From contig JARGPH010000002.1 in assembly GCA_029213065.1 (NCBI GenBank), forward strand, positions 74,551-138,550: 64,000 nt of DNA, read 5' to 3'. Shown here in pieces: positions 6,203 to 59,261 of this stretch. Below the pieces are notes generated by a model. That model ran no database searches, had not been told where the DNA came from, and saw nothing but the letters and a program-made list of their open reading frames with translations. A program made the translations under genes and the position numbers. The stretch is from Verrucomicrobiales bacterium. GTDB lineage: Bacteria > Verrucomicrobiota > Verrucomicrobiia > Verrucomicrobiales > DEV007. Every line of letters starts with the position of its first letter. Within the stretch, counting starts at the first letter, position 1.

Positions 6203-6655
6203 TCAGTCTTCTGTTTCAGGTCGCGGATGAAGCGGCGGCATGATCATGGACATGATGACGAGGCGGCCGGATTTGACGCCCTTACAGGTGATGAGTTTGT
6301 CGGAGATCATTTTGAGCCGTCGCGCCGGTCCCTGGACGAGGATGAGTTCCATGGTGTGATTGTCCTCGAGGAGAATGTGTTGAGAGCTGATCACTTCGTC
6401 GATGTATTCTCTCTCGATCTCGGCGAGCTGGGAAAGGAGCCCGGGGCGCTCCTCGTAGAAGAGGGTGATCGTTCCCGCCATGAGCTCGGTGCCGCGGAGT
6501 TTGTAGTGTTCGATGACACTGGAATTGATCATCTCGGAAATCGCCTGGGACCGGTTTTCGAACCCGCGAGCGGCTACGAGGTTGGACAGTTCATTGTAAA
6601 CATTCTGCGGAAGTGAGATGCTGATGCGTTTGACGCCTGTTCCGGATTCTTTCAT
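6203..6655 (-). CDS. NikR-family ribbon-helix-helix regulator lacking most nickel ligands
   Basis: 150-aa protein. The N-terminus (about 8-50; KRISISLPQNVYNEL, NRSQAISEMI) is a ribbon-helix-helix DNA-binding domain; about 58-140 is the ACT-like NikR C-terminal domain. Against E. coli NikR from memory, the ligands His76, His87, His89 and Cys95 correspond here to Arg82, His93, Leu95 and Thr101, so only one survives. Nickel sensing is therefore unlikely, and no urease or nickel transporter is in view. It is the first gene of the guanidine/urea operon, 44 nt downstream of an inverted repeat with NikR-operator spacing, so autoregulation and control of the operon are inferred. The effector may be the operon's substrate or an intermediate. 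Confidence 0.85.
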   Translation of the reverse strand: MKESGTGVKRISISLPQNVYNELSNLVAARGFENRSQAISEMINSSVIEHYKLRGTELMAGTITLFYEERPGLLSQLAEIEREYIDEVISSQHILLEDNHTMELILVQGPARRLKMISDKLITCKGVKSGRLVIMSMIMPPLHPRPETED

Positions 6656-6698
6656 TTCAGTGGGGTTACTTCCACTAGAGCATCTCCCGTGCCGCTGC

Positions 6699-6726
6699 GT
6701 AATACTTTATGAATGGTTCGTATTAC
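6699..6726 (-). promoter_or_regulatory. Putative operator, GTAATA-N16-TATTAC
   Basis: Perfect inverted repeat: GTAATAC at 6699-6705 and GTATTAC at 6720-6726, 14 nt between 7-base arms, i.e. 6-base half-sites 16 nt apart. The E. coli NikR operator (GTATGA-N16-TCATAC) has the same geometry and similar half-sites. It lies 44-71 nt upstream of the NikR-like start and 32 nt past the stop of the deacetylase gene, the place expected for a promoter-operator driving the operon towards base 1. Confidence 0.7.
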
Positions 6727-6757
6727 TTCTCTCTATCGATCGTGATACCCGGGGCTT

Positions 6758-7645
6758 TCAGCTGCCGGGATGATCGAAATCGATTTCGTTCCGGGCGTTG
6801 GGGTGGCGACTGACCCAATCGGCAATTTCCGATCCGGTCGCGACCCAGGCGTCGTTGCTTTCGAGGATGCCGGTGATGAGTCGTTCCAGCAGTTTGACCC
6901 GCGAGGGCCGGCCGCTGAGCCAGGGGTGCAGGGTGAGAACGAAACAGCAGCCATAGTCGCGCATCGCTTCGAATTCGTCCCACCAGAGGCGGAAGACTTT
7001 GTCGCAGTCTTCGGGGACAAAGCCCCAGGCCGGGTCGGCATTGAAAGCGAATTGCTCCCAGTCCTCCAGCATCCAGTTCCCGGGGATTTCGACGAGGCCG
7101 TTTTCGTGTTGAAAGGGCACGTCGTCGCCCATGAGGCTGGCGTTGTATTCGAAGCCGTGGTGGTGGAGGAGGTCGACGGTACCGGGATTGATTTCGAACC
7201 AGGGGGCCCGGTAACCGGTCGGGCGTATCCCGACCTCTTCGCGAAAGATTTTGAGGCTGCGCTCGAGGACCGCTTCCTCCTCCTCCGGCGAGAGGGTTGC
7301 GAGTTTTTCATGGAGGTGGCCATGGGCGCCGATTTCGTGACCGGCGTCCATGATCGCCCCGGTCATTTTGGGGTGCTGCTCCACGATCCAGGTGGGGATG
7401 AAAAAGGTCGACGGGACTTCAAGGTGATCGAGCAGCCCGAGAATCCGCGGAACACCGACACGGGGCCCGTAGGCACATTGCGACATCGTAGTGAGACGTC
7501 CCGCGAGAGCGGCCTCTTCGGAAAGGACTGTGGTTTCGCCGTCGACATCGAAGCAGAGCATCACGGCGCAGCGTTTCCCGACAGGCCACTGGAAGCGGGG
7601 CTCCGGTGTGAAAGGAGTTCCTGAAATGAATCGTCCGAAACTCAT
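6758..7645 (-). CDS. Polysaccharide deacetylase-family (NodB/PuuE-like) hydrolase
   Basis: 295-aa metal-dependent deacetylase-fold protein without signal peptide, so probably cytoplasmic. NodB motifs: FDVDGE (Asp33, Asp35) motif 1, HGHLHE (His108, His112) motif 2, RAPWFE about 146-151 motif 3. Cytoplasmic members of this kind include PuuE-type allantoinases and amide/imide hydrolases of nitrogen catabolism, and the neighbourhood (guanidine genes, Rieske oxygenase, ABC transporter) fits a small-molecule C-N hydrolase better than a cell-wall deacetylase. It is the last gene of the block starting at 12808 and ends before the operator of the next operon. Substrate unknown. Confidence 0.85.
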   Translation of the reverse strand: MSFGRFISGTPFTPEPRFQWPVGKRCAVMLCFDVDGETTVLSEEAALAGRLTTMSQCAYGPRVGVPRILGLLDHLEVPSTFFIPTWIVEQHPKMTGAIMDAGHEIGAHGHLHEKLATLSPEEEEAVLERSLKIFREEVGIRPTGYRAPWFEINPGTVDLLHHHGFEYNASLMGDDVPFQHENGLVEIPGNWMLEDWEQFAFNADPAWGFVPEDCDKVFRLWWDEFEAMRDYGCCFVLTLHPWLSGRPSRVKLLERLITGILESNDAWVATGSEIADWVSRHPNARNEIDFDHPGS

Positions 7646-7754: not shown

Positions 7755-9023
7755 TCAGGTTGCTTTGTATTGTTTGATGCGATCCGCGAGGTATTTCTGG
7801 AAGTGCCAGATCGGTTCCTCGAGGTGGCTGAGTCGTCCCGGTTTGGAGGCGGTGGAGCGCACTCCCTGCTGGGTCGCGTCGCAGACCTCCATGTCTTCGA
7901 GGTGAAAGGCGATTGCCGCGGCGACTTCGCTTTCGTAGGTTTCGTCGTATCCCTCTTCCTCTTTTGTTGCGGGATTGATCAGCATTGTGGTGGTGAGGCT
8001 GCAGGTCTCCGGTCCTGTCGGAAGAAGCCGGTACCAGTAGGTGCGGTCCGGTGCGTTGAAGATCAGAAAATTCGGAAAGCCGAGGTAGACCCACCATTCG
8101 GTGTAGTCCTCAACCGCGAGACCGGGGAAGGGCTTCATGGTTGTTCCGGCGTCACCGGACGCGAGAATCTCCTCTTTCATATTCTCTTTGAGAGGCAGGT
8201 GCATGACCGAGTAGTTTTCGTTGTAGGGCTCGGTCCAGCAGCCTTTCGCGGGGAGGAAGGGCTCGAGCGTTTTCCGGTGCGCGCCGAGGTGGTGGTAGGC
8301 CTCCATGAAGTTTTCGAGGAGGATCTTCCAGTTGAACTCGCAGTCCCAGTGCTGGTCCCAGACCAGTTCCGCTTCGGCGAGATTCCATTTTCCGATGAAC
8401 TGATCGCGAAGTCCGCTGTACTTTTCCGAGAGCGGGGCGATCTCTTTGGAGAGGGTTGCAAAGATGAAGCCTTCCCAGATTTCACTGCGATATTCGTGAA
8501 GGCAAACTTCAGTGCGGTCAAAGCCATCGGCTTCCTGCATCTCGGGTACGCCGACGAGCTTGCCGCCCATTTCGTAGCTCCAGAGGTGGTAGGGGCAGAG
8601 GATGACTCGTTCGTTGCCTTTGTCAGGGTAGTTGTATCCGTTGGGCATCAGGTCCATTCCCCGGTGCCTGCAGACTCGCGAGAGCACCTTGATCTGATTG
8701 TCTTTGCCTCGGGTCACGAGCATGGGTTCTCCGCAGACATCGACTTTGACGAAGTCGCCGGGATTCGGGAGTTGTGAGATGTGAGCCAGAGAGATCCATT
8801 CCTTGTGGAAGATCTCCGAGGTCTCAAAATCGAGGAAGGCGGGATTGACGTAGGCGCCGGGAGGCAACGATTGTGATTTCTCACGCGGCAACTCTGATGA
8901 TTCGATGATGCTTTCGAAAATACTTTCAGTGGGAGGGATGTTCTTCGAGGAGGGGAAGTTGTACTTCGCCGCTTCGGTTGTGCAGGATTCGGGTGGAGAG
9001 GGCAGGGTGTCGGTGGAGCTCAT
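7755..9023 (-). CDS. Rieske non-haem iron oxygenase, alpha subunit
   Basis: 422-aa ring-hydroxylating-type oxygenase. Rieske [2Fe-2S] site: Cys118-x-His120 and Cys143-x2-His146 (VCRHRG, LCPYHLW). Mononuclear iron site: ENFMEAYHHLGAH with His244 and His249, third ligand probably the Asp in EDMEVCDATQQG near the C-terminus. Members of this family in nitrogen clusters often N-demethylate quaternary or methylated amines (glycine betaine, stachydrine, carnitine), so oxidative N-dealkylation is a reasonable inference; no reductase component is in the window. The ATG at 9023 overlaps the upstream stop as ATGA. A longer in-frame start at 9083 would run back into the upstream gene and is disfavoured. 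Confidence 0.9.
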   Translation of the reverse strand: MSSTDTLPSPPESCTTEAAKYNFPSSKNIPPTESIFESIIESSELPREKSQSLPPGAYVNPAFLDFETSEIFHKEWISLAHISQLPNPGDFVKVDVCGEPMLVTRGKDNQIKVLSRVCRHRGMDLMPNGYNYPDKGNERVILCPYHLWSYEMGGKLVGVPEMQEADGFDRTEVCLHEYRSEIWEGFIFATLSKEIAPLSEKYSGLRDQFIGKWNLAEAELVWDQHWDCEFNWKILLENFMEAYHHLGAHRKTLEPFLPAKGCWTEPYNENYSVMHLPLKENMKEEILASGDAGTTMKPFPGLAVEDYTEWWVYLGFPNFLIFNAPDRTYWYRLLPTGPETCSLTTTMLINPATKEEEGYDETYESEVAAAIAFHLEDMEVCDATQQGVRSTASKPGRLSHLEEPIWHFQKYLADRIKQYKAT

Positions 9024-9886
9024 GATAGTGTTTTGGTTGAGTAGGTTTCTGAAAAGCGGTCGCGTTGACGGTGGGCGATCCATGCGTTGATCTCCCAGAG
9101 GTCACCGAGTGGTTCTTCGGTGAAGGGAAGAGTGTGGAGGTAGCCGTCGGGGCCGAACTCCGGAGTCATTGTCGAGACTTCAAAACCGCGTTCGGTCTGA
9201 GAGTTCCAAATCGTGTCCCACCAGCGCTCGTGTGCGAGGAGCGCTTCGAGAGATTCGGGTGCCCTCGGATCGGTCACCTGGGGGCCCTGGCTGTAGCCGA
9301 CGCGAGTGTGCATGTGGTAGGCGTGGCTGGCGCAAAGCGAAAGGATTTCCGGTTCCTCTTCGAGGACGAGGCGTTCTGTGACGACGCAGAAGTGACTGAA
9401 GTCGCAGGTGATCTTGAGATCAGGGATTTCCTTGAGGACATCACGAACCCGCCAGGGGCTGTTAAAGTATCGGCCCCGGTGTGTTTCCACGGAGACGGGG
9501 ATGTCGAACTCCGACTCGAGTGCGGGCACCGCGGCGTAAAACTCCATTGCTTCAGTGAAGGACCAGCCGTCGTATCCGGCCATGGTGTTGATGAATCGCG
9601 GGCAAGCGGGGAGTGCGTTTTCGATCTCCTCCTTGAGGGAGTCGAGATGCTCCTGAGGTGAGTGGTGAGGGAGGGGCACGTAGAGACCCGCCGGGGTGAG
9701 TGTGCTGATTTCGGCGATGAGACCGAGATTGTCCGCCTCGAGCGCTGCGGCGAACCCTTTTCGTTCCCCGGGATCCGGGGGGACGGGGGATTCGATTCCG
9801 GAAAAGCCGGCCTCGTGGCAGAGGGTGATGGCTTCTGTGAGGGTGCCTTCGTGGCCCCAGAGTGTTTTAAAGAGTTCCAGTTTCAT
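9020..9886 (-). CDS. Sugar-phosphate isomerase/epimerase-like TIM-barrel protein
   Basis: 288-aa xylose-isomerase-like TIM barrel. Visible barrel landmarks with likely metal ligands: the early Glu in GFSGIESPVP, VSVETHRGRY in the middle strand, TCDFSHFCVV, and the His-rich strand HAYHMHTRVG. Such proteins isomerise, epimerise or dehydrate sugars, inositols and hydroxy acids; the substrate cannot be read from sequence. Start at 9886 (MKLELFKTLWG) gives an ATGA overlap with the upstream gene, and its stop overlaps the Rieske start in the same way, so the three genes are translationally coupled. Confidence 0.82.
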   Translation of the reverse strand: MKLELFKTLWGHEGTLTEAITLCHEAGFSGIESPVPPDPGERKGFAAALEADNLGLIAEISTLTPAGLYVPLPHHSPQEHLDSLKEEIENALPACPRFINTMAGYDGWSFTEAMEFYAAVPALESEFDIPVSVETHRGRYFNSPWRVRDVLKEIPDLKITCDFSHFCVVTERLVLEEEPEILSLCASHAYHMHTRVGYSQGPQVTDPRAPESLEALLAHERWWDTIWNSQTERGFEVSTMTPEFGPDGYLHTLPFTEEPLGDLWEINAWIAHRQRDRFSETYSTKTLS

Positions 9887-10602
9887 GATTGCATGGTTTC
9901 CTTGATGAGGCGGAAGCCGAGGTTGTCGTAGCGGGCTTCGAGTGGAGCCCAGTCTCGCCAGGAGACGCGGAGGATGCGTGGGAGATGGTCCCAGGCGCCA
10001 CCGCGAATGACGCGGCGTGTCGGATCGAAACAGTTCGATGCGTGGCTTGCGGTCCAGGCGCTCGCGGTCCACTCGCAGACATTTCCGAGCATGTCGAAGA
10101 GTCCGAACCCGTTTGCGGGGTAGGTTCCCGCCGGGGTGCGACGTCCCGGGCCGACCGGTGTTCCCCGTTCATCGTATAGGTAGTTGGCATCGTTCACGCT
10201 GATCCCGCTTCCCCAGGGGAAGAGAGAGTCTGCTCCGCCGCGGCAGGCGTATTCCCATTCGCTTTCGGTGGGAAGGCGGTAGCGGGTGTCGGGATGGGAT
10301 TCCGAGAGCCAGAGGGTGTAGTTTTCAATCTCTTTGAGGCTCACGTTCACGACCGGTTTCAGTGAGTCGGTCCCGACGGCGCCGCTGCCGGATCTAAAGA
10401 GGGACCACTCGTGTTCGGTGACGGGGGCGGCCGAGATCGCAAAGCCTTTCGGAAAGGTGACGTCCTGTCGCGGCAGTTCGACCCCGCTGACATATTTGTC
10501 CGAGGATGACCCCCCCATTTTGAAACCGCCCGGAGGAACCTCGATGAACGAGTTCGCAAACGGGAGGGGGCCGCTCACAGGTTCAGGAGATTTCATCAAC
10601 AT
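9883..10602 (-). CDS. Formylglycine-generating-enzyme-fold (SUMF1-like) protein, catalytic cysteines absent
   Basis: About 239 aa with FGE-sulfatase fold hallmarks: FIEVPPGGFKMG at the start, PVTEHEW, YRLPTESEWEYACRGG, GLFDMLGNVCEWT, RVIRGGAWD, and GFRL at the end. Where true formylglycine-generating enzymes carry the Cys pair after EW in the GNVWEW region, this protein has EWTASAW, so it is unlikely to mature sulfatases. The fold is also used by oxidative C-S or C-N chemistry enzymes (EgtB-like) and by binding proteins. It sits between the ABC binding-protein gene and the TIM-barrel gene, with an ATGA overlap downstream. Start taken at the ATG 10602 (alternative 10596); a TTG at 10650 is further upstream. 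Confidence 0.8.
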   Translation of the reverse strand: MLMKSPEPVSGPLPFANSFIEVPPGGFKMGGSSSDKYVSGVELPRQDVTFPKGFAISAAPVTEHEWSLFRSGSGAVGTDSLKPVVNVSLKEIENYTLWLSESHPDTRYRLPTESEWEYACRGGADSLFPWGSGISVNDANYLYDERGTPVGPGRRTPAGTYPANGFGLFDMLGNVCEWTASAWTASHASNCFDPTRRVIRGGAWDHLPRILRVSWRDWAPLEARYDNLGFRLIKETMQS

Positions 10603-10678
10603 GGCGATTACGAAAATGGGGGGGATGGGGAGGAAGGCCGGTTGTGTCAATGTTAGTTCGTAAAGATCGTTCGGTGAA

Positions 10679-11911
10679 TCACTCGCCGTAGCCGGATTTT
10701 TTGAGTGTCTTCATCGGTGTGAGGTCAATCCCGGCCTCCATCGGGTAGGTCTCTTTGACGACGCCGAACTTGACCCACCACTCGTTGGTGAGTTTCCAAT
10801 GGTTTGAGATCTCACCCATTTTGCCGAAAGGAGGGTCGCCATCGGTGAGACCCATGAACTGGGAGGACTCGGTCCAGTTGAAAGGGTAGATCCCGCCGTC
10901 ATTGGATTCGCCGCTGGAGCCGATCACCAGCTCGACGTCGGCGACGGGGAACTTGAGTCCTTCCGCGATGATCTTGTTGCCTTCTTCGGGGTTCGCTTTC
11001 CAGTATTTGACCGCTTCAAAGTAGGCCTTGATTGCGAGGGCGGAGACTTCGCCTTTCTCGAGAAAGGAACCGCTCATATACATGCCGTCCGCGAGAAGAG
11101 CGGTCTTCTTGAAGTAGGGGTCTTTGGAGGTCGCAGCGACGGTGGCTTCGGGGAGGACCTTGAGGACGTTACTGCCGAAGGGTTCCCAGAATTCACCGGC
11201 CGCAACTTTGCCGCTCGCCATTGCCGCGACTGCGTCGTCCATGATCAGGTTGGTGTATTTCACTTCGTCGAAGCCGACGCCGTTTTCCTCGAGCCAGATC
11301 CCCATGAAGATCTGGGTGAGACCGCCTTCAAGCACGGCGACTTCTTTGCCGATGAGTTCTTTGGCCTCGGTGATCCCGGGGGCGAGAATGATTTTATCGG
11401 TTCCGTAGGACGGGTTGGTGTAGGCTACCATTTTCACGGGGACTTTCTCCTCGGCGGCGATGGGGCCGTATTCAACGGTCGAGGAGGTGACGTCGAGCTG
11501 GCCCGCTGCCATGAGGCCGAAGCTCTCGTAGGGATCCTCGATGATTTGAATGTTGAGATTGATCTCGGGGACGAGGTTTTTCTCCCTGGCGATAAACCAG
11601 AAGCCGTAGCCGGGCCAGGAGAAGAGCGACACGTTCACTGTGGGAACTTCCGCCGGTGCGGCCGGTGCCGGTGCTGCAGCGACGGGTTCGGCCTCCGGTG
11701 CCGGTGCCGGTGCCGGTGCCGGTGCCGGTGCCGGTTTCGCGGGTGCGTCGGGGGTGGCCACGGTTTCGGTGGGTGGCTCTGCGGGAGGATCGGTCGCGGC
11801 TTCCGGTTCCGGGGGTTGGGAGCAACTGCCGAGGAAGAGGGTGAGCGCGAGACCGGCGAGAAGGCCGGCAAGAGGCTTGCTAGGGAGGGTGGTATCGTTA
11901 TTGGATTTCAT
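10679..11911 (-). CDS. ABC transporter substrate-binding lipoprotein, NitT/TauT type
   Basis: 410-aa binding protein of the NMT1/TauA/SsuA type. Signal peptide with a lipobox ending at Cys30 (FLGSC) predicts a lipid anchor. A Pro/Ala/Glu-rich linker (about 32-92) precedes the binding domain, which opens with VSLFSWPGYGFWFIAREK and contains EFWEPFGSNV. Family substrates are small nitrogenous or sulfonated compounds, pyrimidine precursors or guanidine-like solutes. It lies 48 nt downstream of the permease gene; no ATPase gene is in this block. The linker contains a perfect hexanucleotide tandem repeat. Confidence 0.88.
   Translation of the reverse strand: MKSNNDTTLPSKPLAGLLAGLALTLFLGSCSQPPEPEAATDPPAEPPTETVATPDAPAKPAPAPAPAPAPAPEAEPVAAAPAPAAPAEVPTVNVSLFSWPGYGFWFIAREKNLVPEINLNIQIIEDPYESFGLMAAGQLDVTSSTVEYGPIAAEEKVPVKMVAYTNPSYGTDKIILAPGITEAKELIGKEVAVLEGGLTQIFMGIWLEENGVGFDEVKYTNLIMDDAVAAMASGKVAAGEFWEPFGSNVLKVLPEATVAATSKDPYFKKTALLADGMYMSGSFLEKGEVSALAIKAYFEAVKYWKANPEEGNKIIAEGLKFPVADVELVIGSSGESNDGGIYPFNWTESSQFMGLTDGDPPFGKMGEISNHWKLTNEWWVKFGVVKETYPMEAGIDLTPMKTLKKSGYGE
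11697..11732. repeat. Hexanucleotide tandem repeat, 6 x GGTGCC
   Basis: Six perfect copies of GGTGCC on the plus strand, coding for Ala-Pro repeats in the linker of the binding lipoprotein on the minus strand. The unit is a multiple of three, so slippage would change linker length without breaking the frame. Confidence 0.95.
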
Positions 11912-11959
11912 GATGTTTGAGGGGAGAGAGAGTTTGAGAGAGGAACGCGCGGGTGGTTT

Positions 11960-12808
11960 TCAGTAGAGGTAGCGAAACCAGAGGCGGTGAAGGAGTCGGA
12001 AAATGAGGTCGAAAAGGAGACCGAGGAGGCCGATCACGAGGATACCGGCGAGGATGTCCTCCACCCTGACAAAGCGCTTTGCCCGCATCATCATGGCGCC
12101 GATTCCGTCGGTCGCGGCAACGATCTCGGCGATGACGAGGTAGGTCCAACTCACCGCCATCATCTGCCGCGCGGTATCGACGTAACTGGGAAGGGACGCG
12201 GGGAGGATGACGTGCCAGAGGACGTTCTTTTTAGTGGCCCCGAGGGTTCGGGAACATTCTACGACCTCCTCGCGGACCGCTTTGGTGTTGTCCATGAGAA
12301 GGGTGACGAGAAACCAGACGACCCCTAGAATGAGAAGGGCTATTTTCTGGCCGTCCCCGGTTCCCAGCCACATGAGGAGCAGCGGGACGAAAGAGGGCGC
12401 GGGAAGGTAGCGGAAGGGCGAAATGAGAGGGTTGAGAAAGCTTTCGACTACCGGAAACGATCCCATGAGAATGCCGAGGGGCAGGGCGATCGCGAGAGCG
12501 ATCGCAAAGCTGATGAGGATGCGTTTCACGCTTTGCCAGATATCCACTCCGAAACCGCGCTCTGCGATGAGGTCGTAGAGTGCGGTGACGACGGTGCCCG
12601 GAGTCGGGAGGAGAGCGTCGGGCGTCAGTGAGGATTTCGCGAGGAGGTGCCAGCTGAGGATGAAGAGGGCCCAGGCGGAGATGCCGAGAGCGAACTTCAT
12701 TCCTCGATTGACCGGTTTGCGGAATTCAAAAAGGGAACGTTTCGCTGGAGACCGGGTACTCGCTTTCGATATCTCAGGGGAGAGAGGGGATAGAGCGTCA
12801 GTAGGCAT
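11960..12808 (-). CDS. ABC transporter permease, NitT/TauT (SsuC) type
   Basis: 282-aa inner-membrane permease with about six hydrophobic segments and the binding-protein-dependent transport loop about residues 165-215 (ECSRTLGATKKNVLWHVILP, the EAA-type ATPase-coupling motif). N-terminal Ser/Thr/Lys-rich cytoplasmic tail, first membrane segment about 45-65. It begins block B and precedes the binding lipoprotein. Start chosen at the ATG 12808; in-frame ATGs at 12865 and 12889 would make the coding region reach to or across the palindrome at 12871-12896, which looks like an operator. Confidence 0.88.
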   Translation of the reverse strand: MPTDALSPLSPEISKASTRSPAKRSLFEFRKPVNRGMKFALGISAWALFILSWHLLAKSSLTPDALLPTPGTVVTALYDLIAERGFGVDIWQSVKRILISFAIALAIALPLGILMGSFPVVESFLNPLISPFRYLPAPSFVPLLLMWLGTGDGQKIALLILGVVWFLVTLLMDNTKAVREEVVECSRTLGATKKNVLWHVILPASLPSYVDTARQMMAVSWTYLVIAEIVAATDGIGAMMMRAKRFVRVEDILAGILVIGLLGLLFDLIFRLLHRLWFRYLY

Positions 12809-12870
12809 AGCGTTGCGTCGTGGCTGGTTCGAATTGAGGTCTGAGAGGTGCAGAAGTCGTGCCATCCGGA

Positions 12871-12896
12871 AAAGTATTTGCGTGTGCAAATACTTT
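12871..12896. promoter_or_regulatory. Perfect palindrome between divergent permease and MarR genes
   Basis: AAAGTATTTGC at 12871-12881 and GCAAATACTTT at 12886-12896 are exact reverse complements separated by GTGT. Size and symmetry suit a MarR-dimer operator. It lies 62-88 nt upstream of the permease ATG and 104-130 nt upstream of the MarR ATG, so it could control both directions. Confidence 0.7.
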
Positions 12897-13000
12897 TTGT
12901 GTTAAGTCGTTAAGCTTGTCGGAGGTGCGGGGAATCATGGTGATTTACGGTAAGGCGGCAGTAGCTTTTCCCCTTCAGGGCTGCCATATTAGCGGGTTGT

Positions 13001-13501
13001 ATGTCCGACGAAAATTCCTTCCACCAGCACGTCGCCTGGCGCCTTTTTCTAATGAGCCATTCGGTTCTGACGAAAGCGGTGACCGCTGCTCTCGATGAGG
13101 CGGGGTGTATTTCTTTTGATACTTACGATGTGCTCGTGACCCTTTCCGAAGCGCCGGGTGGGCTCATGAAAATGGGCGATCTCGCCAACGCGACTTTTTT
13201 CAGTAACAGCGGCATTTCCCGCCGTGCCGCCCGTCTCGAGGAGGAGGGATTGATGAAGCGGGTTCGTTGCGGAGACGACGGTCGTGTTTTCTATGCGACC
13301 CTCACTCCTGCAGGACGAAAGGCCCTCCGTGATGCGTGGCCTGTTTACCGCAAGGTGATTGACAATGTGTTCGTTCGTTCGCTTTCGAAAGAGAAAGCTC
13401 AGGCGATGACGGCGATGTTCCGCACTGTTCTCCGGGAGGTCGATACGGGCCTCCTCGAACGCTGGATCGAGGAGGATCGCACCGACGAACCGATGTGCTG
13501 A
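13001..13501 (+). CDS. MarR-family transcriptional regulator
   Basis: 166-aa winged-helix regulator. After an N-terminal dimerisation helix (about 8-35) comes TYDVLVTLSEAPGGLMKMGD, the recognition helix region NSGISRRAARLEEEGLMKR (about 69-87) and the wing CGDDGRVFYATLTPAGRKAL (about 90-109), followed by C-terminal dimerisation helices. MarR proteins usually repress a divergent operon and their own gene and are relieved by a small ligand. The only divergent operon is the transporter/Rieske block, and a perfect palindrome lies between. The stop abuts the stop of the convergent GlnT-like gene, leaving no terminator space. Confidence 0.92.
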   Translation: MSDENSFHQHVAWRLFLMSHSVLTKAVTAALDEAGCISFDTYDVLVTLSEAPGGLMKMGDLANATFFSNSGISRRAARLEEEGLMKRVRCGDDGRVFYATLTPAGRKALRDAWPVYRKVIDNVFVRSLSKEKAQAMTAMFRTVLREVDTGLLERWIEEDRTDEPMC

Positions 13502-14863
13502 TCAGAAGAGGCGGGCGTAGTGATCGACTTCCCACTGGGAAACGGTCTGGTGATACTGGCGCCATTCCTCTGACTTGTAGGTGATGAATTCATCGCGGAG
13601 CTCCTGACCGAGAACCTTCGTGACAAAGGGATCGGCGGAAAAGACTTCCACCGCCTCCTGGAGGGTTTGAGGCAGTTCCCGGATCCCGGCCGCCTCAAGC
13701 TGTTCCGGAGAATACTCGTAGAGGTTGGCCTCCTGAGCGGGGCCCGGATCGATTTTTTCGCGGATCCCTTCGAGACCGGCAGCGACCATGAGAGTGGCGG
13801 CGAGGTAGGGGTTGCACGCCGCATCGGCGTTGCGGGATTCGATTCGGCCACCGCCCATGGGAACGCGGAGTGCGTTGGTGCGGTTGTTTTTTCCGAAGCT
13901 GTTGAAGACCGGTGCCCAGCTGTAATAGGCCATGAGCCCTTTTCGGACGAGTCGCTTGTAGCTGTTCACGGTCGGGGCAAAGGCTGCGCAAAGCGCGGGG
14001 CCGTGCTTGAGAACCCCGCCCACGAACTGGTAACCGAGTTCGGTGAGACCGAGGCCACGGGGATCCTCCGACGGATCGCACTTGAAAAGGTTCGCTCCTG
14101 TTTCGGGATCGAAGAGCGAGAGGTTGAAGTGGGCGCCCGATCCGGTTTTGTCGGCAAAAGGTTTCGGCATGAAGGTCGCGATGAGTCCTTCTTCGGAGGC
14201 ATACTGTTTTGCCATCATCCGGAAGAAAACGAAGCGGTCACACATGGTGAGAGCATCGGAATACTGGAAGTCGAACTCGAACTGGGAATTGGCGTCCTCG
14301 TGATCGAGTGAGTAGAGATCCCAGCCGAGGTCATTGATCGTCGTGGCCACTTTGTCGATCCACTCGTAGCGGTCCATGAAGCGTTTTACGTCGTAGCAGG
14401 CCTTGACCAGGTTGTCGTCGGGATTGGGGATTTCCAGTTTGCCTTCCTCGGTCTGTTTGACCACGTAGACTTCGCATTCGATCCCGAGGTTGACCCCGAA
14501 TCCCATCGAGGCGGCATCCGCGAGGACTTTCTTGAGCGCGACGCGGGTGTTCACCGGATAGGGATCGCCTTTGAAAGTGTTGTCGGCCGGATAGAACGCG
14601 ACCTCCTTGTTCCACGGGAGGATACAGCCGCGGTCGAGGTCGGGGACCGAGGCGATTTCATCGTCGTTGGGACGCTGCCCGAGCCCGTCGAGGGCGTAGC
14701 CGGTGTATAGTTCGGAGCCTTCGGCAAAGTGCACGAAATGATCAACGGGCACGAATTTTCCCTTGGGGACACCGTGGATGTCGACATAGGCGCCGACACA
14801 GTATTTGACGCCTTCAGCTTTGAGCTTTTCGCGGATCTGGATGAGTTCTTCTTCTGTTTTCAT
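13502..14863 (-). CDS. GlnT-type glutamine synthetase / gamma-glutamylmethylamide synthetase-like ligase (copy 1)
   Basis: 453-aa glutamine-synthetase-superfamily ligase of the GlnT/GMAS group. The N-terminus has [19 protein letters not shown] (beta-grasp), then VPDLDRG. The catalytic domain has [42 protein letters not shown] and [19 protein letters not shown], covering the usual metal-binding Glu/His positions. The His-x-His of classical enzymes reads His-Phe-Asn. Enzymes of this group ligate glutamate to ammonia, methylamine or other small amines, so a role in capturing amines released by the pathway, or in gamma-glutamylating the substrate, is inferred. It is the last gene of block C, 81 nt after a paralogue. 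Confidence 0.88.
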
Positions 14864-14944
14864 AGTGGGGAGGTGGTGTGGAATAAGAGAGTATGAATTT
14901 TGAGGTATTGTTAAGTCAGGGTGGTGCGGTGCTTGTCAGCGGTT

Positions 14945-16381
14945 TCAGAGAAAGGTCATCATCCGGTCGTGCTGGTCTTTGTGGATGGTGTAGAAGTCGC
15001 GTTCCCATTCCGTCGTTTTCTGAGAGATGAAGATGTCTTTCATCTCCCCGAAGACTTCACCGGCGAGCTCGTCCTCTTCGAAGTATTCGATGGCGTGGCA
15101 GAGGGTTGAGGGAAGGAAATCGATGCCCGACTGGCGGATCTCCCGTTTCGTTTTCTGGTAGAGGTCGGTGTTGATCGGTTCTCCGGGATCGAGTTCCTGT
15201 TCGATCCCTTCGAGTCCGGCGGCAAGATGGAAGGCGGCCGCGAGGTAGGGATTGACGCTCATGTCGGGAGCCCGGTTTTCGAGGCAGTATCGGTTCAGTG
15301 GCATCCGCATCATCGCGGAACGATTGTTGCGACCGTAGGCAGCGAGGACCGGGGCCCAGCTCACATCGAGCATTTCGCCCTGGGAAATAAATCCCTGGTA
15401 GCTGTTGTAGGTCGGGGATGTCACCGCGGTGATGGCGGCGGCGTGCTTGAGGACTCCGGCGGCGAAGTGGTAGGCATTCTTCGACATCGGAATACCGTAT
15501 TTCTCGATGAAGGCATTCCCCTCCGGCTCCGGAGCGAAGGCATTGGACTCCGTGGTGTTGTCCTGAAGCGACATGTTGAAGTGGCATCCCGAGCGGAAGT
15601 CATCCGCGAACGGTTTCGGCATGAAGGTGGCAATGCAGCCAGCCGATTCGGCGACTTTTTTTGCCATGAGCCTGAGAAAGACGAGCCGGTCTGACATTGT
15701 CAGGGCATCGGAATAGTCGAAGTCGAATTCATACTGGCTGTGGCCACCTTCCTGGTCGAAGGAGTAGAGACCCCAGCCGAGGTCCCGGATGTGGCGGCTG
15801 AAGGGTTCGAGGAAATCCATCGAACTGAAGGTCTGGGCAACGTCGTAAGCCGGGCAGAGGCCGCGGTAGCGATGAGGGGACAAGCCGGTGCGTTCTCCCG
15901 TTTCGGGGTCTTCGCGGAAGACGTAGAATTCGGGTTCGACCCCGAGATTGAAGGTGTAGCCGAGTGAGGCGGCGCGGTTCATCTGGCGTTTCAAAACCTG
16001 ACGGCTGTCGTTGGGATAGACGTCTCCGTGATGGTAGAGATCGCCGAAAAAGTAGGCGAAACGTCTGTCCCAGGGACAAATGATCATGGTATCGAGATCG
16101 GGTACGGCGGCGCATTCATCTTCATGCGGTCCGATCAGCCCCATGCCCTCCATTGCACCGACGGTGTAAAGTTCCGAGCCTCGCGCCATCTGGGCGAGGG
16201 CATCGGACGGAGTGACCTTTGCCTTGGGCGCGCCGTGGATATCGACGTAGGTGGAGAGGAGGTAGTCGATCCCTTCTTTCTCAATCTTCGCTTTCACTGC
16301 GGCGAGCTGAGTCTGGTCGACTTCAAAGTCTTCGGGGATAGCGAAGGTTGGTTTACTGGAATTTGAGGGCGCGGTGATCAT
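14945..16381 (-). CDS. GlnT-type glutamine synthetase-like ligase (copy 2)
   Basis: 478-aa paralogue of the adjacent ligase with the same order: [90 protein letters not shown]. The metal-binding Glu residues remain, but His before Glu in the [10 protein letters not shown] motif of copy 1 is Gln here, the loop before the second His motif differs (DDFRSG against DKTGSG), and the segment after NR is diverged. This points to a different amine or acyl substrate rather than redundancy. It lies 148 nt downstream of the creatininase-like gene. Confidence 0.87.
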   Translation of the reverse strand: MITAPSNSSKPTFAIPEDFEVDQTQLAAVKAKIEKEGIDYLLSTYVDIHGAPKAKVTPSDALAQMARGSELYTVGAMEGMGLIGPHEDECAAVPDLDTMIICPWDRRFAYFFGDLYHHGDVYPNDSRQVLKRQMNRAASLGYTFNLGVEPEFYVFREDPETGERTGLSPHRYRGLCPAYDVAQTFSSMDFLEPFSRHIRDLGWGLYSFDQEGGHSQYEFDFDYSDALTMSDRLVFLRLMAKKVAESAGCIATFMPKPFADDFRSGCHFNMSLQDNTTESNAFAPEPEGNAFIEKYGIPMSKNAYHFAAGVLKHAAAITAVTSPTYNSYQGFISQGEMLDVSWAPVLAAYGRNNRSAMMRMPLNRYCLENRAPDMSVNPYLAAAFHLAAGLEGIEQELDPGEPINTDLYQKTKREIRQSGIDFLPSTLCHAIEYFEEDELAGEVFGEMKDIFISQKTTEWERDFYTIHKDQHDRMMTFL

Positions 16382-16529
16382 GGTGTTGGAAGTGTGTTAG
16401 GACAGGTTGGGGATCGGTTTGCAAAGTGTGGTGTGGGGCGGGGTGATTGGGCGATTTTCTGATCGAATGGTATGGCGGTGCCGTTACCGGTGGCAGCACC
16501 GGCAGGGAAAGGGTTCGTTGTCTGGGGCT

Positions 16530-17327
16530 CTACCAGGAGGGGGAGCGCGATTTTTCAGCCCATTCTTCGGGAGGTAGAGGAGGTTTTTCGACGAGAGCCT
16601 TCGACGCCGTTTCGGCGAGGGCGTCGGCCATTTCCCGGAAGAGCCGTTCGCCCTGAAGGGCGGTTCCCTCGGAGGGCCGGCCGGTGAGTCCGTTCAGGCT
16701 CGTCTGGGAGACGGGGTAGGAAAGGACCGTTTCCCCGGTTCGGTCGGGGTCATCTTCGACGACGGACATGTCAACGGTTTCGGGGGCGAGATGGAGCATC
16801 AGATCGGTCTCGGCCCGGTTCGCGTGGAGATCTTCAGCGTCTTCGAAGAAGTAGTCCTTGATCGAAGGCGTCATCATGAAGGTGTTCACCATCCCGATTT
16901 GGAGCGAATTGAGATGTCTCAGTCTGAGCTTATCGATCGCGACGCGGAGGACTGCGTCATTGCCGAAGTGGGAATTCACGATGAGGAGTCGTTCCCAGCC
17001 GGTCGCGATCATCCAGTCGACGAGGTCGAGGACGGACTGGATAAAGGTTTCGTGTCGGAGTGAGAGGGTCCCGGGCCACTTCGCGGTGTGCCCCGCCGAG
17101 ACGGTGTAGGGCATCACGGGGAGGCAGGGAATTCCGGTGGCAGCGGAGGCCGCTTCAGTGAGCTGTGTTGCGATGACTGAATCGGTGTTGATGGGAAGGT
17201 GAGGGCCGTGCTGTTCGGTCGCCCCGGTGGGGAGCATCAGCATGCGCATGCCGCTCTCCTGGAGCGATTCGATCTGCGTCCATGAGAGGTCGTCGAGACG
17301 GAGTGGAGAAGGAGGGGAAGTTTTCAT
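16530..17327 (-). CDS. Creatininase-family amidohydrolase
   Basis: 265-aa creatinine-amidohydrolase-fold metal enzyme. Metal-binding segment ATEQHGPHLPINTD (Glu38, His40, Asp49), NSHFGN with His120 (family NGHGGN), and LHANRAETDLM with His168 and Glu173 (family HAGExET). Known members open cyclic amides (creatinine to creatine) or hydrolyse formamides in cofactor and riboflavin pathways. In a guanidine cluster a creatinine-like or N-acylated guanidino substrate is plausible. Gap to the ABC ATPase gene is 19 nt. The Ser and Phe replacing Gly in NGHGGN argue for a divergent substrate. Confidence 0.88.
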   Translation of the reverse strand: MKTSPPSPLRLDDLSWTQIESLQESGMRMLMLPTGATEQHGPHLPINTDSVIATQLTEAASAATGIPCLPVMPYTVSAGHTAKWPGTLSLRHETFIQSVLDLVDWMIATGWERLLIVNSHFGNDAVLRVAIDKLRLRHLNSLQIGMVNTFMMTPSIKDYFFEDAEDLHANRAETDLMLHLAPETVDMSVVEDDPDRTGETVLSYPVSQTSLNGLTGRPSEGTALQGERLFREMADALAETASKALVEKPPLPPEEWAEKSRSPSW

Positions 17328-17346
17328 GGGAGAAATGGAGAGCGGC

Positions 17347-18249
17347 TTATTCGACGTCGTCGCCCTCGACCGTCATGCGGCCGAAGGGGAGGGTGTCCTC
17401 TTCCGTCTCGCTCTCGGGATGGATCAGCTGATTAATGCGGTGCTTGGTGGCAACGAACTCGGGGGTGATCGCCTGATCAAGACGGCGGGGACGGGGCACG
17501 GACACTTCGATGATCTCATCGACTTCGCCCGGGTTCGCCTTGAGGACGAGGATGCGGTCGGCGAGAAAGACAGCTTCGTCGAGATCGTGGGTGATGAAGA
17601 GAATCGTGATATCGAGGTTCCGCCAGATCTGGAGGAGGTAGCTCTGCATCTGGGCGCGGGTCTGGGCATCGAGGGCGCCGAAGGGTTCATCCATGAGGAG
17701 AATGCGGGGGCGGTTCGCGAGAGCTCTTGCGATTGCGACGCGCTGTTTCATCCCGCCCGAAAGCTGGTGGGGGTAGCTGTTTTCAAAACGGGAGAGCCCC
17801 ACCATATCGATCCACTGACGGGCTTCGCCTTCAACGGCGCTCCCGGATTTTCCCTCCATTTTGGGTCCGAACATGACGTTCTCTTTCACGGTCAACCAGG
17901 GGAAGAGGGTGTAGGACTGGAAGACCATGCCACGGTCCGGCCCCGGCCCCGCGACGGGATTTCCATCGAGGAGGACCTGCCCGCTCGATTCAGTTTCGAG
18001 GCCGGCGAGGATGCGAATCAAGGTCGACTTACCGCAACCGGAGGGCCCGATCACGCACATGAATTCGCGGCGGTAGACTTCGAAATCAACGCCCTTGAGG
18101 GCTGCCACTTCGCCGGTGGGAGTGGGGAAGGTTTTGCCGAGATTTTCAACCGAAAGCACCACGGGGCGTTCTTTCATCCGGTCAAAGCGATCTTTGACGG
18201 CGGGGGATTGTTCACGGTAGTCGATGGTATCTATAAGGGGAGGGGTCAT
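17347..18249 (-). CDS. ABC transporter ATP-binding protein, NitT/TauT (SsuB) type
   Basis: 300-aa ATPase with all motifs: Walker [10 protein letters not shown] (68-76), Q-loop Gln111, signature LSGGMKQR (163-170), Walker B ILLMDEP (183-189), switch His221. An N-terminal extension of about 30 residues precedes the core. It follows the permease with only 2 nt between and is the only ABC ATPase in the window, although two permease/binding-protein sets exist; it may energise both. Confidence 0.95.
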
Positions 18250-18251
18250 AT

Positions 18252-19676
18252 CTAGTGGGAGGTGGAATTTGTAGTCGCCGGTTCAGGCGGAAGACGTTGT
18301 TCGACCGCATCCTTGAACCAGCGGGGAATGAAGAGCAGTGCCTTGATGAGTGGATTGGCGGAAGCGGCCGCTGCCTCCTCAGAGTAGGGAAAGATGACCC
18401 CGCGAAGAAGAGCGAGAATCTGATCGGTGAAGAAGCCGATCAACCCGATGAGGATGATCACGGGGTAGACCATGTCAAAATTCCGGAAGCGGCCCTGTGT
18501 TTCGATGAATTCGGTGAGGCCGCTTTTGACACCGATGAGTTCGGCGATGACGAGCCAGGTCCAGGCCCAGCCGAGGAGAATACGGAGGTCGTTGTAGAGG
18601 TTCGGAAGGATGCCCGGGATGACCACTTTGGTGACGAGTTGCCACTGGTTCGCACCGAGGGTCTGGGCGGCTTCGAGAAGGGGAAGGTCGAGGCGCCTCG
18701 TCGTGTTCGAGACGACGAGGACAAGTTGGAAGAATGTCCCCACGAACACGAGTGCGATCTTGGGGGCGTCATTGGCGAGAAAGATCGCGACAAGGAGGGT
18801 GCTGAATGTCGGTGCCGGCATGTAGCGGAAGAAATCGGTGAAGGGTTCGACCAGTTTCGAGAAGACGGAATAAGTCCCGCAGAGAACGCCGATCGGGATT
18901 CCGACCGCGGCGGCGAGGAGAAAGCCCCCGAAGACGATGCGTATCGAGTGGCCGGTTCGCTGAAGCATCGAGGGGCGGTCTCCCTCGGCGGGTTCGGTGA
19001 GGATTTTGATTCCCGCTGTGGCGACCTGATCAGGCGAGGGAAGGTAATCCGGGTTCGCCGACCGCCCCTGGGGAATCAAACTGATCAGGGGCACGGAAAT
19101 AAAATTGTCTGAATCATAGGTTTTTGAAACCGCAGACATCGCGGCCCAGTTTCGCTGAACGATGGCGAGGTTTTCGTCACTCAATGCCGGTGATTCAGGG
19201 AGCCACGTGCCCTCGGCAATGTCACGCCAGACTTCGTAAATGAGTGCGTCCTCCTTCTTTTGGTCGTCTTTAATACGGCCGTTTGATACGAGAACCGGCG
19301 CGAGGTGACGGAGAATATTTTTGTTGCTTCGTCGCACCGACCTTTCGGAGACCCCTGCGAGAGGATCAGCTGATTTCAGTTGGGCTTCGATCGCGGCGTT
19401 CTGCTTTCGCACCGCATCGGTGAAGGTGGGGAAGTAACCTTTACTGACCCGGTCGCCGGCGATGTAAACTGTCGTGACATCACCCCGGTCAGCGGAAAGT
19501 TGGAGCCGGACGTCAGGGTGCCAGAGGAAGGGCAGGTAGCTGACTCCTGCCCAGATCGCGAGAGGAAGCGCGAACGAGATCACACTGAGAATTGAGGCCC
19601 GCTTAGCGGAGAGGTCTCTTCTAACCGCAAACCAGGGTTCCTTGTTGGTGGCTTTTTGATGACGGAGGATGCTCAT
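18252..19676 (-). CDS. ABC transporter permease with large N-terminal extracytoplasmic insert
   Basis: 474-aa permease. After one membrane segment (about 30-50) comes a hydrophilic stretch of roughly 170-190 residues, then the standard NitT/TauT permease core with five or so membrane segments and the coupling loop [20 protein letters not shown]. The core ends about 430, leaving a cytoplasmic tail. The insert, placed between membrane segments, is probably periplasmic and could dock the binding protein. Partner genes are the ATPase (2 nt downstream) and the binding protein (114 nt upstream). Confidence 0.88.
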
Positions 19677-19790
19677 GTGGGGAGGAAGGAGTGGCGGAAC
19701 GGGGGAGAGGCTGCGGAACGGGGCGTTGCAGGGCCTCCGGGGTGGGGAACACGCCGGAGGCTAAAACAAAAAGGGGGGGGGAACCCGGGC

Positions 19791-20798
19791 TCACTCGCCC
19801 AGTTCGGCAAGCACTTCGAGCGTCAGGCTGGGATCGAGATACTTGTCGGTATCGAGAGATTTCTCGTAAACTTTGTAGTTCACGTTGAACTCATCAGAGA
19901 TCACGGATGAGCCGTAGATGGAACTGAGTCCTTCGGCCTTTTCCCAGACGGGCTTCACTTCTTCAGCGCTCAGGATGTAAGTCCCTTCGAGAAAGGGTTC
20001 GTATTCTTCGGGGCTGATCGAGACCCGTGAGGCGAGGATTTCGAGTGCTTCGTCGATGTTGTTTTCGTCTTTGAGAAACTCGACGATCTTGTACCAGACC
20101 TTGATCACCTTCTTCCAGTCATCCCGCTTCGCTTCGAGCGACTCAGGGTCTACGAAGAGCATGTCGTAGATGAGACCCGGTGCGTCCGCCGAGGTAAAGA
20201 CGGGGGTGGACCCGGACACCAGCTTGAGCGCTTCGCCGGAATTGGGTTGCCAGGCGGCGATAGCATCGACCGCACCCGAAGCGAGCACCTGAGGGGTCTC
20301 GTTCGTAGGGGTGTTGATGATCGTGATGGTGTCGCCGTCGACGTCGTTCATTTCGACTCCTTTGAGAAAGAGCAAGTGGGTCACGAAGCCCTCTTCAAGG
20401 CCGATCTTCTTGCCTTCGAGGTCCTTCAGCGATTTGATGCCGTCTTTGGCGACAACCATGTCATTTCCATTCGAAAAGTCATTGATGAGGATGCCGACAG
20501 ACGGCTTCCCTGTGGCTCCGGTGACGAGGGCATCCCCGTTTGTCATGCTCACTCCGTCGATTTGGCCGGCGGCGTAGGCATCCATCGAGGCGACGTAGTC
20601 ATACCAAGCAAACTCCACTTCGACGCCTTCTTCTTTGAACCAGTTTTTCTTGATTCCGATTTCCCAGGCGACCCAACCGGGCCAGTCACTGTAGGCGATT
20701 TTGAGGGGTTCAGCCCGGGCTCCCGTGGCGAGGACGGCGAGTGCACCGATAAGAGCGGCGGCAAAAGGACGGCGAATTTTAGATAGCTGAGTTTTCAT
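19791..20798 (-). CDS. Periplasmic substrate-binding protein, urea/guanidine-carboxylase-associated type
   Basis: 335-aa binding protein. Signal peptide about 1-28 (cleavage after GARA, mature start [17 protein letters not shown]), then a NitT/TauT-like two-lobe fold with [48 protein letters not shown]. The wording closely follows the binding-protein family described for urea carboxylase regions, now best read as guanidine-pathway transporters, and links block C to block A 13 kb away. Start set at the ATG 20798, which gives a proper signal peptide; an in-frame ATG at 20897 would add 33 unrelated residues. Confidence 0.9.
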
Positions 20799-21301
20799 AG
20801 AGGTCGTTTTCTGTTTGATGGATTGCAGGGTGCTCAAATTGAGGTGCAACACTTGGCAATCGGAAGTAGCAGCCCCTGTGCCAAAGCCTTTTGGCAAAGG
20901 TTTGCGGTAGCGGTGAAACGGGCCCGACGACCCTGTTGTCCATCGTTCTACTCGTTTAGAGGCAGCTGGTTGTGCCTGGTGTCACGATGCGCGATGGAAC
21001 GTAATACGGGGAAAGGATATTTTCGAAATCGCTCTTCGGGGAGGCGAGTGTGCAGGCGCGAATCGCCTTTTGACCTGATGAGGCAGGGCGCTTCCGACGC
21101 GGGTGCGGGAGCAGATTTTCGCGACGGCGCCGTTCCCTCGCAGGGGCGTGAGACGGTCAGGAAAGCTGCGCGGGAACGGAAAATTAGCACCGGAACGGAA
21201 CCGGCCCCGGGAGCGGAAAAGTAAGAAAGTGAGATCGAGGTGTCGAGCTCAGCGAGAGGTCGTTCACTGCGGGTGTCCCGTGGTTTCGCGGTGGCCGTCT
21301 T
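20799..21301. other. 503-nt gap upstream of transporter operon
   Basis: Promoter region of block C plus the end of the convergent FecR-type gene side. No convincing gene: open frames on the plus strand here have basic, low-information translations. A 7-base-arm palindrome is at 20879-20896. No recognisable guanidine-I, -II or -III riboswitch core was found by eye on the minus strand. Confidence 0.6.
20879..20896. promoter_or_regulatory. Palindrome TGCCAAA-N4-TTTGGCA upstream of transporter operon
   Basis: Exact 7-base inverted repeat, 81-98 nt upstream of the binding-protein ATG. Size fits a dimeric repressor site or a short hairpin in the leader; it differs from the other two palindromes in the island. 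Confidence 0.4.
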
Positions 21302-58973: not shown

Positions 58974-59061
58974 CCTTCCGCAGTGCTCGTGGACTTTGCC
59001 TCTGGTGCGGGGAGCTTGGCGGTGGGCGCTCATGTACGTTGAGGTAAGGGGCTCTCTGAAT

Positions 59062-59261
59062 GGGCTGAAAGCCCTGTCGAACAAAGCCTGGGACTTCAGT
59101 CCCAGGTCCAGAATCGTAAACAGGTGCGACCTGAAGGGCCACCCGAAAATTCTCCCTGCTCCCTGTATTTGCGAGCGCCCTTTCAGGCCGCATCGATGGA
59201 AGATTCCACACCCCGGGCTGAAGCCCGGGGCTGTGTTCGGTCAGGCTTTCAGCCTGAAAGC
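59062..59261. repeat. Four palindromes with related CTGAA/TTCAG cores
   Basis: 59062-59074 GGGCT-GAA-AGCCC; 59087-59106 CCTGGGACT-TC-AGTCCCAGG; 59211-59230 CCCCGGGCT-GA-AGCCCGGGG; 59242-59261 with CAGGCT-TTC-AGCCTG and an overlapping GCTTTC..GAAAGC. All have AGCC/GGCT-type stems and a GAA or TTC centre, suggesting degenerate members of one palindromic repeat family. Confidence 0.65.

Follow-up and report, generated by a model that had tools for sequence, protein, structure and literature searches.

A NikR-fold protein that represses its own gene together with the genes for guanidine breakdown is the likely reading of a conserved dyad in the window, that is, the whole 64,000-nt stretch of Verrucomicrobiales DNA analysed here. 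The protein would act through the dyad, which lies beside or over sigma-54 promoters, and the repression would be relieved by guanidine or a near derivative. This reading is inferred from sequence alone; the features involved are collected in Table 1.

Table 1. Coordinates of the features located in the window.
Feature	Start	End	Strand	Basis
Guanidine carboxylase, urea carboxylase family, D705 and D957	1099	4719	-	profile match, alignment to 5i8i
cgdB-type DUF1989 protein (UAAP2)	4732	5367	-	profile matches
cgdA-type DUF1989 protein (UAAP1), carboxyguanidine deiminase subunit	5452	6180	-	profile matches
NikR-like ribbon-helix-helix regulator P0001, ligands R/H/L/T instead of H/H/H/C	6203	6655	-	domains, fold, alignment
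Sigma-54-like promoter CGGCACGGGAGATGCT (GG-N10-GC), 4 bp after operator	6679	6694	-	score 12 of 16
Putative operator, half-sites GTAATAC and GTATTAC of 7 bp each, centres 21 bp apart (N14)	6699	6726	.	exact dyad, conserved in relatives
Third half-site GTATCAC, 15 bp upstream of operator	6742	6748	-	clade offset conservation
Sigma-54-like promoter TGGCACGACTTCTGCA near second transporter block start; no operator there	12849	12864	-	window promoter scoring
ABC transporter substrate-binding protein	19791	20897	-	orthologue comparison in 13 genus genomes
Sigma-54-like promoter TGGCACAGGGGCTGCT before ABC transporter substrate-binding gene	20868	20883	-	similar elements before orthologues in relatives
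Weak second operator candidate GTATTAC-N15-GTGACAC, 2 mismatches	20979	21007	-	similar element, similar distance in relatives

The first-pass annotation had described an exact GTAATA-N16-TATTAC repeat at 6699-6726, with the spacing of the NikR operator, directly upstream of a NikR-like gene heading a guanidine operon. The exact repeat (GTAATACTTTATGAATGGTTCGTATTAC) was confirmed. Its symmetric arms are 7 bp long, one base longer than first described, and GTAATAC-N14-GTATTAC is therefore the natural description; each arm is, in addition, nearly symmetric within itself (GTA-W-TAC). The claimed spacing also held, being equal to that of the E. coli NikR site GTATGA-N16-TCATAC (PMC7055735), as did the position, with 43 bp between the dyad and the ATG at 6655 of the minus-strand NikR-like gene. 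The assignment of the operon to guanidine is supported by the Asp residues found at both diagnostic positions of the carboxylase (see below). The dyad is the sole match in the window at up to 2 mismatches, against 0.10 expected in 64 kb, and the only zero-mismatch copy in its own genome (5.91 Mb).

One further N14 dyad with 1 mismatch is present in the same genome (G000:C80:126165-126192), as are three dyads of the form GAAATAC-N14-GTATTTC (G000:C37:86847, C67:11659 and C68:2346), which are possibly the sites of another regulator, or hairpins. Upstream of the operator, a third half-site was recognized by its offset. GTNNNAC occurs exactly 15 bp upstream of the operator in 8 of 11 members of the window's clade and at none of the other offsets between -60 and -7 (0/11), and the flanks around it are otherwise unconserved (mean column conservation 0.45 vs 0.81). 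This half-site could possibly seat a second protein.

Homologues of the NikR-like protein were retrieved (E <= 1e-20) from 68 of 288 genomes of the order and 55 of 387 genomes of the phylum, and from 8 proteobacterial contigs. The sets of 92 and 94 loci used below comprise the better-scoring homologues and not every homologue listed by the searches; 27 weaker rows (23 of the 55 in the phylum list and 4 of the order list, with G122 in both lists) were scored apart. Before counting, L031, L032 and L020 were dropped as the same loci as L102, L103 and L116, and L080 and L108 for having too little upstream sequence. In the 92 upstream regions the dyad was found in 28 at 0 mismatches, in 61 at up to 1 and in 71 at up to 2. 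The corresponding frequencies were 0, 0.16 and 1.8 percent in 1840 shuffles (3/1840 within 1 mismatch), and 0.33, 0.49 and 2.1 percent in 1220 stretches taken from elsewhere in these loci (6/1220 within 1 mismatch), a control that still contains real transporter sites. It should be noted that the half-site models were derived from the same loci that were afterwards scored.

No dyad within 1 mismatch was present in 31 of the 92 upstream regions. L033, L034, L037, L039 and L063 lack an upstream site and have one far upstream, ahead of the transporter gene block; in L093-L098 the operator lies between the regulator and cgdA rather than upstream of the regulator; and in L026, L030, L038, L040 and L091 no dyad was detected anywhere in the locus (N14 only, up to 1 mismatch). 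Of the 11 weaker full-length rows with guanidine genes, only 3 (L148, L157 and L166) have an upstream site within 1 mismatch. The dyad is thus a conserved operator-like element, as established on sequence grounds and without binding data. Lack of conservation upstream of orthologues had been named in the first-pass annotation as a result that would refute it; this test was run, and the motif is conserved (61/92 within 1 mismatch). The first-pass interpretation is thus supported, with one limit: nickel-type NikRs of the phylum include some with the same half-site.

The placement of the sites was then read in ten genus genomes, the window's own included. The N14 pattern (up to 1 mismatch) occurs at 18 places, and its backward control at 1. 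Ten of these places are in front of the NikR-like gene (one per genome), 1 is in front of the transporter gene and 7 are elsewhere, and every one of the six exact copies lies ahead of the NikR-like gene. The N15 pattern (up to 1 mismatch) occurs at 15 places (backward control, 2): 5 at the NikR-like promoter, where they involve the third half-site, 7 before the transporter gene and 3 elsewhere, with the exact copies (4/4) all before the transporter gene. This concentration at two promoters is a direct observation. It indicates that the regulon consists of two promoters, those of the NikR-like operon and of the linked transporter, an inference from sequence that we consider likely.

The sigma-54 consensus is TGGCACG-N4-TTGCW. 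The element just downstream of the operator is a GG-N10-GC near this consensus and rpoN is present in the genome, which satisfies the sequence criterion for a sigma-54 promoter; none of 50 shuffles scored as well, and a scan of 6600-6900 gave no sigma-70 promoter-like site. Scores of at least 10 were reached in 41 of the 92 upstream regions, compared with 2.4% of shuffles and 8/92 reverse strands, and in 35 of the 61 loci with an operator. In 24 of those 35 loci the promoter begins 0, 1, 3 or 4 bp past the end of the operator; in 3 it lies under the operator (offset -30), and in 8 it is elsewhere. Lowering the threshold to 8 gives seven promoters under the operator. The phasing of operator and sigma-54-like element is therefore shown, with the reservation that the score under an operator is not fully independent, because the promoter GG is partly made of the operator's own bases. 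Outside the order, many loci have only a weak sigma-54 element or none. Besides rpoN, the window's own genome encodes six activator domains with E below 1e-40; little weight attaches to six further, weaker matches to the activator family, since this family also matches in all 14 control genomes.

Five sites in the window reach 12 points, and three of them are near the starts of the three minus-strand gene blocks of the cluster (6694, 12864 and 20883). A promoter-like element scoring at least 10 precedes the transporter gene in 21/21 loci. Just downstream of this promoter an operator-like dyad is present in L125-L134 (10/10, 0 to 2 mismatches) and in L139-L141 (0 to 3 mismatches), and none was seen at that position in the remaining 8 of the 21. 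In the genus, the transporter orthologue carries an operator immediately after its sigma-54 promoter in 10 of 13 genomes (own counted among the 13). For the transporter gene of the window itself the only candidate is the weak site of Table 1; a similar element was seen by eye at a similar distance upstream of the transporter promoter in L123, L124 and L135-L138. L122-L124 and L135-L138 share a conserved TATTAC, N15 and a GT(G/A)-rich 7-mer about 120 bp upstream of the transporter sigma-54-like promoter, an enhancer-like distance.

P0001 contains RHH_1 (PF01402, 22.8 bits) and NikR_C (PF08753, 74.1 bits), both above the Pfam cut-off, and matches five NCBIfam NikR models, each below its cut-off. 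Among solved structures Pyrococcus NikR is the closest, and the best matches of the fold search are NikR; the AlphaFold model, built from 11 sequences and mediocre (pLDDT 75.7), was used solely to confirm the NikR fold. No paralogue was found in the own genome at E <= 0.001, P0001 being the sole homologue. The high-affinity nickel ligands of NikR, His76, His87, His89 and Cys95, are replaced in P0001 at three of the four positions. The Cys is absent from 92 of the 94 distinct loci of the first set; the full ligand set survives in L099 and L100 alone. P0001 is thus a NikR-fold protein without an intact nickel site, and nickel is unlikely to be its signal.

The weaker homologues bear on the same point. 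H/H/H/C is intact in 14 of the 27, and none of these 14 has cgd or carboxylase on its piece; by contrast, cgdA/B and carboxylase follow the regulator in each of the 11 full-length rows whose nickel site is broken, their ligand sets being R/Q/M/N, H/L/H/S, R/Q/L/V and H/Q/F/G. The partial L151 (H/H/H/Y) has neither cgd nor carboxylase on its piece, and L169 was too short for its ligands to be read. Of the 16 loci read that keep an intact nickel site, none lies beside the guanidine genes. Loss of the nickel site therefore goes along with the presence of guanidine genes. Two residues are conserved specifically in the family, Gln108 (89/89 rows; Lys or Arg in E. coli NikR, L099 and L100) and Glu87 (80/89), as counted without L028, L029 and L080. 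Among the weaker rows, Gln108 is present in 11/12 with a broken nickel site (L166 has a gap there) and in 0/14 with an intact one. The sister clade L093-L098, in which the operators lie between regulator and cgdA, has Tyr in place of the nickel-binding Cys while most of its histidine ligands are intact, and its members are possible intermediates between metal and non-metal sensing.

The half-site type was compared with strand residue 5 in NikR numbering, which is Ser in P0001. Sites were scored without using the residue, and 26 of the 92 loci were excluded as unclear or tied. The remaining 66 gave 35 Ser/GTAWTAC, 28 Thr/GTATGA, 3 Ser/GTATGA-type and 0 Thr/GTAWTAC pairs. The 35 include L099, whose nickel site is intact, and the half-site types were defined after inspecting the sites. 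The Ser proteins L053, L072 and L078 have one half-site of each kind; among weaker rows with Thr, L157 and L166 have GTATGA and L148 has a mixed site. The phylogenetic test yielded 2 independent pairs on supported branches and 3 on all branches, too few for significance. In the 14 weaker rows with an intact nickel site, a GTAWTAC pair lies upstream within 1 mismatch in 4 (3 exact), and GTGTTAC-N14-GTAACAC within 1 mismatch in 6. L153, L154, L156 and L165 keep all four nickel ligands, and ahead of their own gene stands a GTATTAC-N14-GTAATAC-type site (3 exact); they look like true nickel regulators sharing the half-site. Given this sharing with some nickel-type NikRs of the phylum, the motif is not enough by itself to identify the guanidine regulon.

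Behind the operator the gene order is NikR-like gene, cgdA, cgdB and carboxylase, and in 78 of 94 distinct loci the gene immediately after the regulator is of the cgdA/B (DUF1989) type. Asp at K. lactis positions 1330 and 1584 is the mark of guanidine carboxylases (PMC11410670). In the alignment of the window's carboxylase, P0004, to 5i8i, D705 falls on the position of K. lactis N1330 and D957 on 1584, the latter counted by hand. Because Asp occupies both diagnostic positions, the enzyme is assigned as a guanidine carboxylase. The same residue was found at the 705 position in 72/72 readable loci and at 957 in 71/71, counts that include the window's own locus and possibly two doubled loci (L031/L102 and L032/L103).

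The surrounding cluster (7755-20897) encodes a Rieske oxygenase related to glycine-betaine monooxygenase, an isomerase-like protein, an allantoinase-like deacetylase, a SUMF1-like protein, two GS-like proteins, a creatininase and two ABC transporters; several of these names come from a reading of the translations. A role in handling methylated guanidines or creatinine is possible. In L082, L086, L088 and L089 the same operator is found and an ABC transporter and creatininase adjoin, without cgd or carboxylase on the piece; these loci may possibly represent a sister regulon.

A riboswitch in front of the operon was considered and rejected. The guanidine-I riboswitch controls guanidine carboxylase operons in other bacteria (PMC12186494; PMC12508155). 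No guanidine riboswitch reached the gathering score in the window and there were no Rfam matches in 13 related loci. The guanidine-I class (RF00442) was found in 0/60 carrier genomes (stricter filters, at most 52 candidates scored per genome, classes II to IV outside the genome-wide search). The inferred transcription start near 6668 gives a leader of about 13 nt, which leaves no room for a guanidine-I riboswitch. The only RNA matches in the window are two Acido-Lenti-1 elements, at 59061-59106 (-) and 59211-59256 (+), in opposite orientation and about 100 bp apart.

The mechanism that we propose is as follows. A tetramer of the NikR-like protein would set its two ribbon-helix-helix heads on the two GTAWTAC half-sites, which at 21 bp, or two helical turns, would present one face of the DNA, as with NikR. 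The bound protein would repress its own gene along with those for guanidine breakdown; in many relatives, repression would extend to the linked ABC transporter (uptake). Repression is favoured because operators occur upstream of, over and downstream of promoters. Given that the nickel site is gone, the likely inducer would be guanidine or a close derivative, held in the domain that formerly bound metal; the genes controlled make guanidine the natural candidate signal. A sigma-54 activator may add a second input, for instance nitrogen shortage. DNA binding, repression, ligand and activator are all inferred, there being no binding, expression or ligand data. A bolder reading, for which the case is as good as the case against it, is that a widespread NikR-fold clade has exchanged nickel for guanidine or a direct guanidine metabolite. 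This clade, which would act at sigma-54 promoters in many Verrucomicrobiota and has relatives in Proteobacteria, would then take the place of the guanidine riboswitch as the first guanidine sensor made of protein.

The same operator and repressor could respond to something other than free guanidine, namely methylguanidine, carboxyguanidine, urea, creatinine or a general nitrogen signal. The Rieske oxygenase, creatininase-like, glutamine-synthetase-like and deacetylase genes of the cluster speak for this alternative, as do the four homologues that adjoin creatininase and transporter genes and whose pieces contain neither cgd nor carboxylase. Against it, cgdA/B directly downstream in 78/94 loci and Asp705 in all 72 loci read indicate guanidine chemistry. 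We judge this alternative a serious one, but clearly less probable than not.

It is unlikely that the protein is an activator, which from a position upstream of the -24 element would help the sigma-54 polymerase or its activator. Activation is suggested by the operator of the window's clade, which ends 4 bp upstream of the -24 element, and by the third half-site, further upstream still; however, the operator covers a promoter-like element in L109, L110 and L112-L115, and lies downstream of the transporter promoter in L125-L134. An ordinary nickel-responsive NikR acting on these genes through nickel is more doubtful still. In its favour are the Pfam NikR_C domain, the closeness to Pyrococcus NikR, the operator geometry and the half-site shared with some rows having an intact nickel site. 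Against these stand the three replaced ligands of P0001, the Cys lost in 92/92 closer homologues, the absence of intact sites beside guanidine genes (0/16) and the scores of P0001 below every NCBIfam NikR cut-off. A chance palindrome is all but excluded, and was rejected, by the window expectation of 0.10 at 2 mismatches, the placement in the genus genomes and the conservation relative to shuffles, with the dyad kept in place while its flanks diverged and no point found for chance.

The operator and its protein make protein-based guanidine sensing directly testable. The family is also a natural experiment on ribbon-helix-helix specificity, setting Ser or Thr at one strand residue against the half-site type, and it bears on how a ligand may change in the domain of a metal sensor. 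It further pairs a NikR-type site with a sigma-54-like promoter in a NikR-like family.

To our knowledge, guanidine sensing has so far been credited to RNA switches alone. A review states that protein guanidine sensors are not known so far (PMC12186494), and no NikR-like regulator of guanidine or urea carboxylase genes is described in the open-access literature searched. The guanidine-I riboswitch is likewise tied to guanidine carboxylase operons, but it is an RNA sensor and is absent from the 60 carrier genomes searched. The deltaproteobacterial NikR signal, GTGTTAC-N13/14-GTAACAC with half-sites reversed in some cases (PMC545781), differs in having been predicted for nickel transport and hydrogenase genes; it resembles the present operator in its 7-bp half-sites and N13/14 spacing, and nickel-type NikRs of this phylum use GTGTTAC or GTAWTAC sites. 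Compared with E. coli NikR and its nikABCDE operator, the window has a GTAWTAC half-site, guanidine genes and a sigma-54-like promoter, and a protein without an intact nickel site and with Ser for Thr5. The two systems have in common the RHH plus NikR_C architecture, the equal half-site spacing and the conserved strand Arg3, and family members with Thr at position 5 share the GTATGA half-sites of E. coli NikR.
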